Source: Bacteroidota bacterium (GTDB lineage Bacteria > Bacteroidota > Bacteroidia > Sphingobacteriales > Sphingobacteriaceae). Taken from it: a stretch of DNA of 41,461 bases. Positions 1,063 to 14,722 of the stretch are shown piece after piece (positions within the stretch are counted from its first letter, which is position 1; each line of letters begins with the position of its first letter). Both the position numbers and the translations under genes were made by a program. The stretch is taken from positions 1-41,461 of the forward strand of contig JABDHD010000026.1 of NCBI GenBank assembly GCA_013285685.1, given 5' to 3'. Below the pieces are notes generated by a model. That model was not told the DNA's origin and did no database searches. It was given only the letters and a program-made list of their open reading frames with translations.

Positions 1063-2925
1063 CTATCTTGCAATATGAACCATCAATACCGAAATGTCAG
1101 ACGGCGTGACTCCCGAAATCCGGGAAGCCTGGCCCAGCGTGCGCGGTTTTACTTTCATCAATTTTTCGCGCGCTTCTTTTGACAGCGAAACCAAACCTTG
1201 ATAATCAAACATCGGGTTGATCTCTTTGTCTTCCATTTTTTTCATCCGGTCAACGATATCCATTTCCTTCTCAAAATAACTCTCATATTTGATTTTTATT
1301 TCAGCCTGCTCGATAGTTTCTTTATCAAAGGCGGATAACAGATCATCTAAGGTAGCATCCGCTTTTCGCAGGTCGTTTAACCCCACCTGCGGCCGGCTAA
1401 CCAGGTTAAACAGTTTGGTATTTTGGCTGAGGGCGCTTGTCTCCAAATCTTCCAACAAGTTATTTACCGAAGCAGGGTCGATTGATTTCGCTTTGGTAAA
1501 CGCAACAATGTCATCCGAGTTTTTGATCTTTTGATTTACCTTTTCCAAACGCTCATCGCTGATCAACCCTAATTCATGTCCCATCGGGCTGAGCCGGATA
1601 TCGGCATTGTCCTGGCGCAGGAGCAAGCGGTGTTCGGCACGTGATGTGAACATGCGGTACGGTTCTTCAGTGCCCTTGGTTACCAGGTCGTCAATCAATA
1701 CCCCAATATACGAATCAGACCGCTTCATGATCAGCTCGTGCTTGTCGTTTAGTTTTTGATGTGCGTTAATGCCGGCAATAAAGCCCTGGGATGCCGCTTC
1801 TTCATAACCGGTGGTGCCGTTGATCTGTCCCGCGAAATATAAATTATCGATCAGTTTGGTTTCTAAAGTGAGGCCAAGCTGGGTAGGAGGGAAATAATCA
1901 TATTCAATAGCATACCCCGGCCTGAACATTTTGGCCTTTTGGAAACCCGGAATTTGTACGAGAGCTTTATATTGTACATCTTCCGGCAGGGAGGTAGAGA
2001 AGCCGTTGACGTATATTTCAACCGTATTCCAACCCTCCGGTTCAACAAATATCTGGTGACGGTCGCGCTCGGCAAAGCGGTTGATCTTGTCTTCAATAGA
2101 TGGACAATACCGCGGGCCCAGGCCTTTTATCCGGCCGGTAAACATGGGCGATTTTTCGAAGCCCTCTTTTAATGTTTCGTGCACGTTGGTATTGGTGTAG
2201 GTGGTCCAGCAGCAGCGCTGTTCTTTGGCAAGTTCTACATCGGTAAAGGAAAACCGCCCGCGTTCTTCATCGCCCCATTGTTCTTCCATCAGTGCGTAGT
2301 TGAGGCTTCTGCCGTCAACACGGGGTGGTGTGCCGGTTTTCATCCGGCCTGATTCAAAGCCAAGTTCAACTAATTGCTCGGTTAAGCCGGTCGCGGCTTT
2401 TTCAGCTGTACGGCCGCCGCCGAAACGTTTTTCGCCGATATGGATGATGCCGTTAAGGAACGTGCCGTTGGTTAAAACAACTGCGTCCGATTCGATCTCT
2501 ATTCCAAGTGATGTGCGTACACCGGCGATTGTTCTGTTCTTAACCAGCAGAGAAGTAACGGTGTCTTGCCAAAAGTCTACGTTTGGCGTTCTTTCCAGCG
2601 CTAAACGCCATTCTTCCGCAAAGCGCATACGGTCGCTTTGGGCCCTGGGGCTCCACATCGCGGGGCCTTTTGAGCGGTTCAGCATCCTGAATTGCAGCGA
2701 TGTTTTATCCGTGATGATACCTGAATATCCCCCTAATGCATCAATCTCGCGTACAATTTGTCCTTTTGCAACGCCGCCCATAGCGGGGTTGCAGCTCATT
2801 TGGGCGATGACCCCCATATTCATGGTGACCAAAAGCACTGATGAACCCAGGTTTGCCGCCGCCGCCGCCGCTTCACAGCCGGCATGGCCGGCGCCAACAA
2901 CTATTACATCATATTTCTTAAACAT
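1063..2925 (-). CDS. mnmG: tRNA uridine-5-carboxymethylaminomethyl(34) synthesis enzyme MnmG
   Basis: MnmG (GidA) binds FAD and, with the GTPase MnmE, installs the carboxymethylaminomethyl group on the wobble uridine of several tRNAs. The 620-residue length is normal for the family. The N-terminus has the Rossmann motif '[12 protein letters not shown]' (about residues 9-20), followed by '[13 protein letters not shown]' and '[13 protein letters not shown]', all hallmark MnmG blocks. '[10 protein letters not shown]' and '[16 protein letters not shown]' lie mid-protein, and the C-terminal GidA-associated helical domain ends with '[16 protein letters not shown]'. The ATG at 2923-2925 gives the expected start just before the Rossmann motif. 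Upstream lies the parS-rich segment. In many bacteria gidA is close to the replication origin, which fits those sites. Confidence 0.97.
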
Positions 2926-2956: not shown

Positions 2957-2976
2957 GATGTTCCACGTGGAACATC
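2957..2976. other. parS-type ParB binding site 1
   Basis: A perfect 20-bp palindrome, with core ATGTTCCACGTGGAACAT flanked by G and C. The core TGTTCCACGTGGAACA matches the established bacterial parS consensus (TGTTTCACGTGAAACA type, with the C/G variant found in Pseudomonas and others). It sits 32 bp upstream of the mnmG start codon. ParB would load here for chromosome partitioning; the role is inferred from the motif and its triplication. Confidence 0.88.
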
Positions 2977-2997
2977 TGTTTATTCTTAAACCGCACG

Positions 2998-3068
2998 CGG
3001 CGAATGCAATTCGCCGTTAAAGAGGGCTGCCTTTGGACGTCCTCCGTTAGGGCGTATCGCATACGCCC
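2998..3068. repeat. Two short REP-like hairpins between parS sites
   Basis: CGGCGAAT-gca-ATTCGCCG at 2998-3016 and GGGCGTAT-cgc-ATACGCCC at 3050-3068 are perfect hairpins with 3-base loops and similar design (GGCG-nAT arms). A smaller one, GCGCC-gat-GGCGC, is at 2942-2954. They look like repetitive extragenic palindromes rather than terminators, since no T tract follows. Confidence 0.7.
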
Positions 3069-3093
3069 CCTATGTTCCACGTGGAACATAGGG
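3068..3093. other. parS-type ParB binding site 2
   Basis: The same 18-bp core as site 1 (ATGTTCCACGTGGAACAT, 3072-3089), extended by complementary flanks into a perfect 26-bp palindrome beginning CCCT and ending AGGG. It lies in the intergenic segment between mnmG and the small membrane protein gene. Confidence 0.88.
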
Positions 3094-3094
3094 T

Positions 3095-3120
3095 TAGAGA
3101 CGCGATGCATCGCGTCTCTA
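3095..3120. repeat. 26-bp perfect palindrome (REP-like)
   Basis: TAGAGACGCGATG followed by its exact reverse complement, one base after parS site 2. It has no loop and no T tract. The arm design (GAGACGCGATG) suggests a dispersed extragenic palindrome; only this copy is present in the window. Confidence 0.7.
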
Positions 3121-3140
3121 CGGCGCTTGTTTGTACAAAA

Positions 3141-3395
3141 TTATTCATTAACCCGCGATGTTCCACGTGGAACATTAAATAATGATAATAACGCTACAAG
3201 AGCCCAAACGCCTTCTAAGGCTACAAACGGATAAAACCGTATCAAATACGATGAAAAGCAGCATATGCCCGCCCCAATAAGGTTCATCGCTTTATAGGTA
3301 TTGCTTTGCGCCGGCATCTTTTTATATAGATTCAGCAGAAAAGCAATTAATAAAATGATCACGCCAATTGATGCCAGTATGTCGGGTGCTTTCAT
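3141..3395 (-). CDS. Small CBU_0592-type membrane protein
   Basis: An 84-residue protein with about three hydrophobic segments (roughly residues 7-23, 37-52 and 55-73). Its pattern ('GVIILLIAFLLNL', 'NLIGAGICCFSSYLI', 'PFVALEGVWALVALLSL') resembles the CBU_0592 family of small membrane proteins of unknown function. The start at 3393-3395 abuts the stop of the upstream ABC-F gene (3396), so the two are probably co-transcribed. The last eleven residues ('NVPRGTSRVNE') are encoded across parS site 3 and do not look like family sequence, so the C-terminus seems to have been shaped by that palindrome. Function unknown. Confidence 0.75.
   Translation of the reverse strand: MKAPDILASIGVIILLIAFLLNLYKKMPAQSNTYKAMNLIGAGICCFSSYLIRFYPFVALEGVWALVALLSLFNVPRGTSRVNE
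3158..3175. other. parS-type ParB binding site 3, inside a coding region
   Basis: A third exact copy of ATGTTCCACGTGGAACAT (perfect 18-bp palindrome). It overlaps the 3' end of the small membrane protein gene, where on the minus strand it is read as Asn-Val-Pro-Arg-Gly-Thr. It lies about 85 bp from site 2 and 200 bp from site 1. Confidence 0.88.
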
Positions 3396-5261
3396 TTAGG
3401 CCTCTTTTAACTCAGTTAATTCCAACCAACGTGCACTTTTTGCATCCAAACGGCTATTTAATGCGTCAATTTGTTTCAGTATTTCAGCAAGTTTTTCAGG
3501 ATCAATTCCCGAAATATTCAATTCATCGTTCTTTTGTATTAGCTGCTGTTCTATTTCGGGTATCTCTTTTTCCAGCGTTTCCAACTCCTGGCTATCTTTA
3601 AAGCTCAGCTTGTTTTTCTTTGACGCCGGTACTGCGGAAGTATCAACAGCCACACCTTTCTTGCTTTGTTGTTTGTTTTCCTCCTGTTCTAACCGGTATG
3701 CCGAGTAATTGCCATTGTATATTCTTATGTCTTGGCCGGCCTCCAGTATAAATAGCTGGTCGGTTAGCTTATCCAACAAGTACCTGTCGTGCGAAACCAG
3801 CATCAAAACACCGGTGTAATTGGTTAAAAACTCTTCCAATACATTCAGGGTATCAATATCCAAATCGTTTGTAGGCTCATCCAGTATCAAAAAGTTTGGA
3901 TTTTTCATCAATACCTGCATCAGCAACAGGCGCTTTTTCTCGCCGCCGCTTAGCTTTGAGATAAATCCGTGTTGTTTTGCCGGCGGAAAAAGGAACAAAG
4001 TGAGCAGCGCGGAGGCCGAAATGGTTTTTCCGTCGGCCATGGTAATAAACTCCGCCACATTTTTTACCACATCGATAACCCGTTCCGTCTCTTTAAAAAC
4101 CATGCCGCCCTGCTGAAAATAACCCATAACCGTTGTTTCACCCTTGATTATTGCGCCACGGTCGGGGTTTATTGCCCCGGTGAGCAGATTTAACAGGGTT
4201 GATTTGCCGCTGCCGTTTTTACCTGCCACACCAATGCGGTCTCCTTTCTTAAAAACATAGCTAAAATCAGTGATAACATTTTTATTGTTAAACGACTTGT
4301 AGACATGTTCGATCTCCATAATCTTATTGCCCTGGCGCGCCGTTTTTACCGAAAGTTCTACCTTTTGCTTTGGACCGCCGTTTTTGGTTTTATCTTCCAG
4401 GTCATAATAGGCGTCAATCCGCGCTTTTGATTTGGTTCCCCTGGCCTGTGGCTGGCGGCGCATCCATTCCAGCTCTTTTCGCAATAAATTACTGTTTTTT
4501 TGAAATGCTGCCGCGTCTGCACTTTCGCGTTCGGCTTTCTTCTCCAGGTAATATTCGTAGTTGCCGGCGTAGGGGATGAGTTTCCCTTTATCTATTTCCA
4601 GTATCTCGTTGCAAACATTATCCAGGAAATACCGGTCGTGGGTAACCATCAGGATGGTTTTGGTGCCGTCGGTCAGTAATTTCTCCAGCCATTCAATGGT
4701 ATCGATGTCCAAATGGTTGGTCGGCTCGTCCAAAATATACAGGTCGGGGTCTTCTATCAGCAGTTTGGCCAGCGCGAGCCGCTTCTTTTGGCCGCCGCTA
4801 AGGGTGGTGATCCTTTGATCGAGGTGATGAATATCCAGCCTTCCGAGGATGGTTTTAATCATATACTCGTATTCCCACGCATTGATCATGCTCATTTCTT
4901 CCATCACCACCTCGATGGCCTTATGGTTTTCCGGGTCGTTTTCCAGCAATTCCTCGTATTTCCGGATCAGTTGCTGCTGTTTGTCGTCCGCATGGAAAAT
5001 ATAATCGCTGATGGTGATGGCATCCTTAAAGCCCGGGTCCTGTTCCAGGTAGCCCGAACGCAGATCGCGCATCTGCGCAACTTTTCCTTCGGTTGGCTGC
5101 AGCTGGCCGGCCAGCAATTTCAGCAGGGTTGATTTACCGGCTCCGTTTATACCCACCAGGGCTACCCTGCGCCCGCGGTTTATGCCGATGGACGCGTTTT
5201 TAAATAGCCAGTGGTCATGAAATGAATGGCCGAGGTTTTCGGCCGAGATATATGTGCTCAC
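3396..5261 (-). CDS. ABC-F family ATPase, Uup-like
   Basis: A soluble protein with two ABC domains and no membrane segments. It has Walker A 'GINGAGKST' and 'GKNGSGKST', signatures 'LSGGQKKRLALAK' and 'LSGGEKKRLLLM', and Walker B 'LYILDEPTNHLD' and 'FLILDEPTNDLD'. A basic linker ('QPQARGTKSKARIDAYYDLE') separates the domains, and a lysine/glutamate-rich coiled coil ends the protein (about residues 550-620), which is typical of Uup rather than EttA. ABC-F proteins act on the ribosome to relieve stalled or awkward states; some protect from antibiotics. The 621-residue length is normal. Its start overlaps the end of the upstream SDR gene by 4 bp (ATGA), and the downstream membrane protein gene follows without a gap, so the three form one operon. 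Confidence 0.92.
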   Translation of the reverse strand: MSTYISAENLGHSFHDHWLFKNASIGINRGRRVALVGINGAGKSTLLKLLAGQLQPTEGKVAQMRDLRSGYLEQDPGFKDAITISDYIFHADDKQQQLIRKYEELLENDPENHKAIEVVMEEMSMINAWEYEYMIKTILGRLDIHHLDQRITTLSGGQKKRLALAKLLIEDPDLYILDEPTNHLDIDTIEWLEKLLTDGTKTILMVTHDRYFLDNVCNEILEIDKGKLIPYAGNYEYYLEKKAERESADAAAFQKNSNLLRKELEWMRRQPQARGTKSKARIDAYYDLEDKTKNGGPKQKVELSVKTARQGNKIMEIEHVYKSFNNKNVITDFSYVFKKGDRIGVAGKNGSGKSTLLNLLTGAINPDRGAIIKGETTVMGYFQQGGMVFKETERVIDVVKNVAEFITMADGKTISASALLTLFLFPPAKQHGFISKLSGGEKKRLLLMQVLMKNPNFLILDEPTNDLDIDTLNVLEEFLTNYTGVLMLVSHDRYLLDKLTDQLFILEAGQDIRIYNGNYSAYRLEQEENKQQSKKGVAVDTSAVPASKKNKLSFKDSQELETLEKEIPEIEQQLIQKNDELNISGIDPEKLAEILKQIDALNSRLDAKSARWLELTELKEA

Positions 5262-14398: not shown

Positions 14399-14722
14399 TT
14401 AAGTTAGTAGTGTTTGAATTACATTTACTACCTGCGCTTTAATAGTATTATCAACCTCTCCGAGCTTTCGGTCAATCATGTTTTTTTCAATTGAAGCCAT
14501 TTTGTGCACTCTTATTACCGATGGGAGCTGCAAACCGTTTTGGCTCCAGGTCTTTAATTCAATATCATAAAGAGAGTAATATAACTTACTCGTAATTCGG
14601 CACATGATAACGTCGCCGTCATTGGTGTCCTTAATAATTAGCGCGGGACGTTTTTTAAAACCAATATTGCTTGTGAAAGGAAATTTTACGAGTACAATAT
14701 CACCTAATTTGTAGTTTGCCAT
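14399..14722 (-). CDS. MazF/PemK-family toxin
   Basis: 107 residues with the classic MazF/PemK opening 'GDIVLVKFPFT' and 'KKRPALIIKD', then 'VIMCRITS' and a C-terminal helix. Proteins of this fold are sequence-specific mRNA endoribonucleases that stop growth when freed from their antitoxin. The gene begins 2 bp after the stop codon of the small upstream gene, the standard antitoxin-then-toxin layout. The length is normal and no frame damage is seen, so it looks intact. Cleavage specificity cannot be read from sequence. Confidence 0.87.
   Translation of the reverse strand: MANYKLGDIVLVKFPFTSNIGFKKRPALIIKDTNDGDVIMCRITSKLYYSLYDIELKTWSQNGLQLPSVIRVHKMASIEKNMIDRKLGEVDNTIKAQVVNVIQTLLT

Follow-up and report, generated by a model that had tools for sequence, protein, structure and literature searches.

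Upstream of mnmG in a Sphingobacteriaceae genome, one perfect palindrome is repeated three times. This raises the question of whether the sequence serves the adjoining gene or the chromosome that carries it. The stretch of DNA under study, here called the window, is 41,461 nucleotides long and forms the whole of contig C26 of a fragmented MAG. The three palindromes upstream of mnmG are very probably a parS centromere onto which ParB would load, and this predicted centromere lies beside a replication origin that is placed through relatives.

The palindromes and their neighbouring genes

The 16-mer TGTTCCACGTGGAACA occurs in three exact copies at 2959-2974, 3073-3088 and 3159-3174, which together span 216 bp upstream of mnmG. 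In its 18-mer form, ATGTTCCACGTGGAACAT, the sequence occupies 2958-2975 (site 1), 3072-3089 (site 2) and 3158-3175 (site 3), in each case as an exact match to which no strand is assigned. Site 1, an 18-bp palindrome, lies in a 20-bp perfect inverted repeat (2957-2976), with 32 bp between the 18-mer and the mnmG start codon. Site 2 falls within a 26-bp perfect inverted repeat (3068-3093), and site 3 is the centre of an 18-bp perfect inverted repeat. A first-pass annotation of the window had described an 18-mer present three times, as perfect palindromes and nowhere else in the window, and this description holds; as the copies begin at 2958, its start coordinate of 2957 is one base early. It had also read the parS consensus core in the motif, and the 16-bp palindrome does fit the parS consensus, TGTTTCACGTGAAACA, from which it is two symmetric changes away.

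A scan of the window for further copies of TGTTCCACGTGGAACA at up to three mismatches gave none; 100 dinucleotide shuffles averaged 0.10. Mapping of the motif genome-wide, which had been proposed as a check, returned only the three copies, not scattered: no further TGTTCCACGTGGAACA at up to two mismatches is present in the assembled genome (4.29 Mb, 206 contigs). This genome is 71% complete, so more parS-type sites could exist.

The mnmG gene (1063-2925, minus strand), the conserved neighbour of the sites, encodes a tRNA-modifying enzyme, also named GidA, with PF01134, PF13932 and PF21680 over the cut-off. Among the best matches listed, the closest named relatives of the window MnmG are Mucilaginibacter MnmG proteins, with up to 92% identity. 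On the other side of the sites is an 84-codon ORF (3141-3395, minus strand) for a small hydrophobic protein without a Pfam family, the last codons of which run through site 3. The conserved next neighbour is an ABC-F type ATPase gene (3396-5261, minus strand) with PF00005 in two stretches, PF12848 and PF16326. The earlier description of sites clustered beside mnmG is thus borne out, but that of a pure gap is not, as site 3 reaches into the 3′ end of the 84-codon ORF.

Between sites 2 and 3, TAATTTTG (3136-3143, minus strand) matches TAnnTTTG, the Bacteroidetes -7 promoter motif. The match is weak evidence, and TAATTTTG is a possible mnmG promoter. TAnnTTTG was rejected as an mnmG promoter common to relatives, since no more than 19 of 79 loci carry it in the 130 bp preceding mnmG. 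Elsewhere in the window, a 107-codon ORF (14399-14722, minus strand) looks PemK/MazF-like by eye.

Conservation of the sites among close relatives

The mnmG loci used for comparison are the best 80 of 561 confirmed mnmG relatives in named genomes. Every one of these 80 loci has a parS-type site in the 600 bp upstream of mnmG, at two or fewer mismatches in 79; in the remaining locus (L111) the site is CGTTTCACGTGAAACA, with three mismatches. Twenty shuffled palindromes, run as a control on the 80 loci, gave no matches at up to one mismatch. The sites of the relatives number 181, of which 176 read GTTYCACGTGRAAC, and their variation is nearly confined to the outermost bases and one symmetric C/T and G/A position. 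Therefore, bar the outermost bases, the variation falls where the consensus TGTTTCACGTGAAACA, as given in an excerpt of PMC10197239, differs.

A search of 60 whole genomes, the window's own included, gave matches at up to one mismatch in 50. These comprise all 37 same-genus genomes, with one to five sites each, and 13 of the 23 genomes from other families. mnmG was located within 1.5 kb on either side in all 30 loci cut from the whole-genome matches. The sites form clusters, with some exceptions: among the matches listed, one of the three 1-mismatch copies in a same-genus genome (G007) is on another contig, and two genomes (G020 and G036) have one stray copy each about 5.6 kb away. Single imperfect parS-like copies, with one or two mismatches, were also seen about 5.6-6.7 kb upstream of mnmG in loci L053, L055, L056, L061 and L071. 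In two further loci (L045 and L060) the parS site is in frame with mnmG, where an earlier ATG would add the N-terminal residues MFHVEH if translated.

This conservation bears on the possibility that the copies are the debris of a palindromic, REP-like element that spread in the spacer. Other perfect palindromes or hairpins do lie between the sites, at 2998-3016, 3050-3068 and 3095-3120, as such an element might leave behind. Yet the window has a single copy of the 26-bp palindrome at 3095-3120, TAGAGACGCGATGCATCGCGTCTCTA, and the other 269 loci have none if three cuts from the same spot are set aside. The 16-mer, moreover, is found only at this place in the assembled genome, while parS-type cores hold a fixed place in 80 of 80 relatives (best 80 of 561). 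Repeat debris is thus hardly credible as the source of the three copies.

The position of the sites relative to mnmG bears on a second alternative, in which an operator or an RNA hairpin in the mnmG leader would control mnmG expression, either by the binding of a regulator or by folding of the transcript. Such control would be compatible with the distance of 14 bp or less that separates the nearest site from the mnmG ATG in 65 of 79 loci, and with the capacity of a palindrome to fold in RNA. In the window, however, 33 bp and not about 10 bp separate the 16-mer from the ATG, and the letters of the palindrome are those of parS. Furthermore, 11 loci of other families have the located site downstream of mnmG in seven cases and upstream in four; one of these loci, L007, depends on a match of 22 residues at the edge of a contig. 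Two genomes counted as downstream (G048 and G058) carry another copy at the opposite end of mnmG, about 1.9 kb away.

The sites in the wider class and phylum

Across the phylum, exact TGTTYCACGTGRAACA was found in 221 of 296 genomes and was absent from 75, with a reversed control pattern matching one. The set used for the wider class consists of 40 of the 221 genomes, with listed coordinates, outside the window's family and all of the same class. The position of mnmG was established in every one of the 40, and in 33 a site lies within 1 kb of the gene. Sites are found on both sides of mnmG in five of the 40, and in one genome (G076) one of the three sites is inside mnmG.

In the seven genomes without a site within 1 kb of mnmG, the sites are at 25-118 kb (three genomes) or on other contigs (four genomes). 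Neither of the two genomes of family f29 has a site beside mnmG, the sites being 25-27 kb off. The same holds for all four of family f27 (G219, G235, G215 and G121), with one site at 118 kb and three on other contigs, and mnmG and parS seem to be separated in this family. In G084, of family f26, the site is on another contig, near its end.

The downstream sites and these exceptions argue that the palindrome serves the chromosome and not mnmG. Sites on both sides of the gene in five class genomes, and none within 1 kb in seven, are difficult to reconcile with an operator or leader hairpin, which is accordingly very improbable. Both roles could also be combined: the sites would be true parS sites, and ParB loading would in addition dampen or time mnmG transcription, so that a tRNA-modification gene would respond to the copying of the origin. 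Such a dual role would suit the sites just upstream of mnmG in 80 of 80 loci (best 80 of 561), as well as the sliding of ParB from parS into adjoining DNA described in an excerpt of PMC8367383. It is rather unlikely nonetheless, given that sites are downstream of mnmG in several families.

ParA, ParB and the predicted centromere

The parS reading presupposes a ParB, and one is encoded in the genome (TIGR00180, E 4e-39). The gene stands at the end of contig C16 and is cut off early in the helix-turn-helix, with the fragment retaining the ParB N-terminal domain and a GERR motif. A ParA-like frame with KGGVGKTT adjoins parB. Within this MAG, parAB is therefore on C16, dnaA on C20 and the parS-type sites on C26.

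Noc and ParB are related, and the ParB of one relative has sequence matches to Noc chains, which raises the alternative that the palindromes are Noc-type (nucleoid occlusion) sites instead of parS. The letters point the other way. An excerpt of PMC7383237 gives the letters that set the two kinds of site apart: position 1 of the 14-mer is G and position 6 is A (with T at -6), as in parS, whereas an NBS would carry A and C there. The same excerpt ties the preference for parS to R173 and G201, where Noc has Q and R. The ParB proteins of eight relatives (L124-L131) have R at the 173-equivalent and G at the 201-equivalent in 8 of 8, in ungapped stretches mapped by eye, and thus not the Noc residues. 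All eight have S at residue 170 and N at 172, where the excerpt of PMC7383237 has a conserved G and S, and position 204 is K in six and R in two. Noc-type sites are accordingly extremely unlikely, and the reading as parS is retained. A second ParB-like protein of 631 residues, unlike the chromosomal ParB, was observed in one relative (L132, at G060:C1:2245918).

The location of parS near replication origins is textbook knowledge. At the present locus, ParB dimers would recognise each site, bind CTP, close into clamps and slide onto the flanking DNA, and several sites close together would raise ParB loading. ParA would draw the ParB-coated region along the nucleoid, allowing the freshly copied origin region to separate first. 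This scheme follows the ParABS system as described in an excerpt of PMC7333895, with ParB nucleation, CTP-dependent spreading and ParA-driven movement. An SMC complex may or may not be loaded at such sites: for two gut Bacteroidetes, the excerpt of PMC10197239 reports no known condensin. In the present genome, the binding of ParB, the function in segregation and the oriC in the nadB-nadA gap considered below are all putative. The earlier suggestion that the gap is a centromere-like locus gains support through relatives, from the match to parS, the single location, the conservation, the ParA and ParB genes and the skew.

Position of the replication origin

GC skew was sampled around parS in six Mucilaginibacter genomes in one or two contigs, with 20 stretches of 20 kb in each. 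The right-minus-left contrast was largest when split at parS, as compared with dnaA or parB, in all six genomes. Out of 5000 shuffles, the parS contrast was reached by 23 in G009, where the skew is weak, by one in G035 and by none in G021, G010, G002 and G008. In G021 the parS contrast exceeded the others only slightly, since both dnaA and parB are there within 180 kb of parS.

A free fit of the origin gave offsets from parS of -85, -136, -119, +520, +142 and -104 kb, values that are coarse and have wide bootstrap ranges. The offset of +520 kb, which has a wide interval, belongs to G010. In contiguous 200-kb stretches, the minimum of cumulative skew was offset from parS by -16 kb in G035 and by +15 kb in G021, which in each genome is the side that carries nadA.

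The loci themselves allow a finer comparison of GC skew at third codon positions, taken on the plus strand with mnmG forward. Between mnmG and the nadB-nadA gap the skew is -0.06 for plus genes and -0.11 for minus genes, and beyond the gap it is +0.08 and +0.11, respectively. The sign thus changes in both orientations across 64 loci, which contain the same orthologues in each locus and hence few independent genes. Beyond parS, over the 10 kb that precede mnmG, the skew is about zero (+0.03, -0.02) and not negative. The window has a mean GC skew of +0.025, which fits a position in the right replichore.

Both dnaA and parAB were rejected as markers of the origin. The dnaA gene is 158-1451 kb from the sites in the six skew genomes, about 1.28 Mb in G060 and about 0.90 Mb in G061, that is, far from them in eight of eight relatives. 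parB is 176-1748 kb off in the six genomes; in G060 the distance is about 1.2 Mb, and in G061 it is 0.58 Mb. The skew contrast was smaller than at parS in 6 of 6 genomes, whether centred on dnaA or on parB. In nine genomes of other families, dnaA is about 0.4-1.7 Mb off in eight and on another contig in the ninth.

The first-pass annotation had placed the window near oriC and had named GC skew and the location of dnaA and oriC as a means of verifying this. In relatives, and in relatives only, the placement agrees with the GC skew of six genomes and the third-codon skew of 64 loci. GC skew changes sign around the locus in the six relatives, but dnaA would be a misleading guide, being 0.16-1.45 Mb off in 8 of 8. 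It appears that mnmG, and not the usual marker dnaA, marks the origin, which quite probably lies within a few tens of kb of mnmG.

A candidate oriC between nadB and nadA

In the relatives, nadB and nadA diverge from a gap that lies past mnmG, on the opposite side from the sites, and starts 5.7-9.0 kb from the mnmG ATG, at a distance of 6-9 kb from parS. The gap could be measured in 64 of 80 loci (L036-L115), of which 51 have a gap of 406-411 bp and 13 a longer one (442-715 bp). All 64 gaps are AT-rich, at 0.70-0.81. The nadB-nadA pair is inverted in L106, and 15 loci are without one or both of the genes, mostly at contig ends, with both missing across the full 11.8 kb in L041 and L091. In all eight Mucilaginibacter genomes, nadA is 6.4-7.2 kb from parS.

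An alignment of 57 of the 64 gaps, with the seven longest left out, contains conserved short words such as TGTTAATAA. DnaA boxes within one mismatch of TTATCCACA number 39 in the gaps, as compared with 8.2 in mononucleotide shuffles, and exact TTATCCACA boxes number seven, as compared with 0.25. At least one box at up to one mismatch is present in 31 of the 57 gaps. The excess stands out less in a stricter control with 1680 words of the same composition, TTATCCACA included, of which 42 reach a count of 39 at up to one mismatch and five reach a count of seven exact matches. Three exact TTATCCACA boxes stand where other species have TGTTAATAA, at aligned positions 35 and 282. Only boxes within the gap were used for these counts. 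DnaA boxes at +5.0 to +6.5 kb were rejected as evidence for oriC, as most of the exact ones are inside the nadB coding sequence, chiefly at fixed positions (-163 and -505/-508).

On balance, these observations lean towards an oriC in or very near the nadB-nadA gap. Extrapolated to the window, the gap is predicted to start about 2.8-6.1 kb beyond base 1 at the left end, the base at which the contig ends. A 2.9-kb DNA query, used without a positive control, gave no nadB-nadA gap in the window's own MAG. A NadA family search of this 71% complete MAG likewise returned nothing, and the same search detects NadA in 12 of 14 control genomes.

In the complete genome of Mucilaginibacter sp. SMC90 (G060:C1), coordinate 1 falls within about 0.7 kb before nadA, and nadB is at the end of the record. 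This arrangement suggests that the record begins close to the candidate oriC, though dnaA is at 1.27 Mb.

A broader proposal, which is tentative and slightly more open to doubt than to acceptance, concerns Mucilaginibacter and its kin as a whole. Here, nadB-oriC-nadA and mnmG-parS, about 6 kb apart, would form a fixed module that is entirely unlinked from dnaA and parAB. The oriC would be a gap that hardly varies in length (about 407 bp), with DnaA boxes that have drifted towards TGTTAATAA, and mnmG-parS would be, for much of the class, the ancestral landmark of the origin.

Significance and comparison with known systems

It is common for chromosome records to be oriented by dnaA, a gene that in the relatives compared here is far from the predicted origin. 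With a parS pair beside mnmG as landmark, the origin side of the chromosome could be recognised from sequence alone in much of the class. Such a landmark would be usable on fragmented assemblies and would point to a defined candidate oriC. That origins of Bacteroidetes can be far from dnaA, and that parS serves as an origin marker, is already published. A literature search did not find mnmG as a standing parS partner in the class; the main parS survey (Livny 2007) was outside this search and may report it. The use of the nadB-nadA gap as oriC was likewise not found in the literature search.

The closest parallel for the candidate oriC is that of Prevotella intermedia OMA14, an origin with DnaA boxes far from dnaA. 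The paper that describes it, PMC4755523, regards an oriC far from dnaA as common in Bacteroidetes and makes no mention of parS. The parS clusters of Bacteroides caecimuris and Muribaculum intestinale, treated in the excerpt of PMC10197239, belong to the same phylum. There, the parS cluster and a shift in GC skew together place the origin, which does not systematically coincide with dnaA. These are other organisms, however, and mnmG is not named in that excerpt.

With the chromosomal parS of ParABS systems (consensus TGTTTCACGTGAAACA), the present locus shares a palindromic 16-mer, the CACGTG core and a small number of clustered copies. It also shares the presence of ParA and ParB in the genome and a location on the origin side, here known from relatives. 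It differs in the arms of the palindrome, which in the window are GTTCC/GGAAC instead of GTTTC/GAAAC, and in its setting, which is beside mnmG and, in relatives, far from parAB and dnaA.
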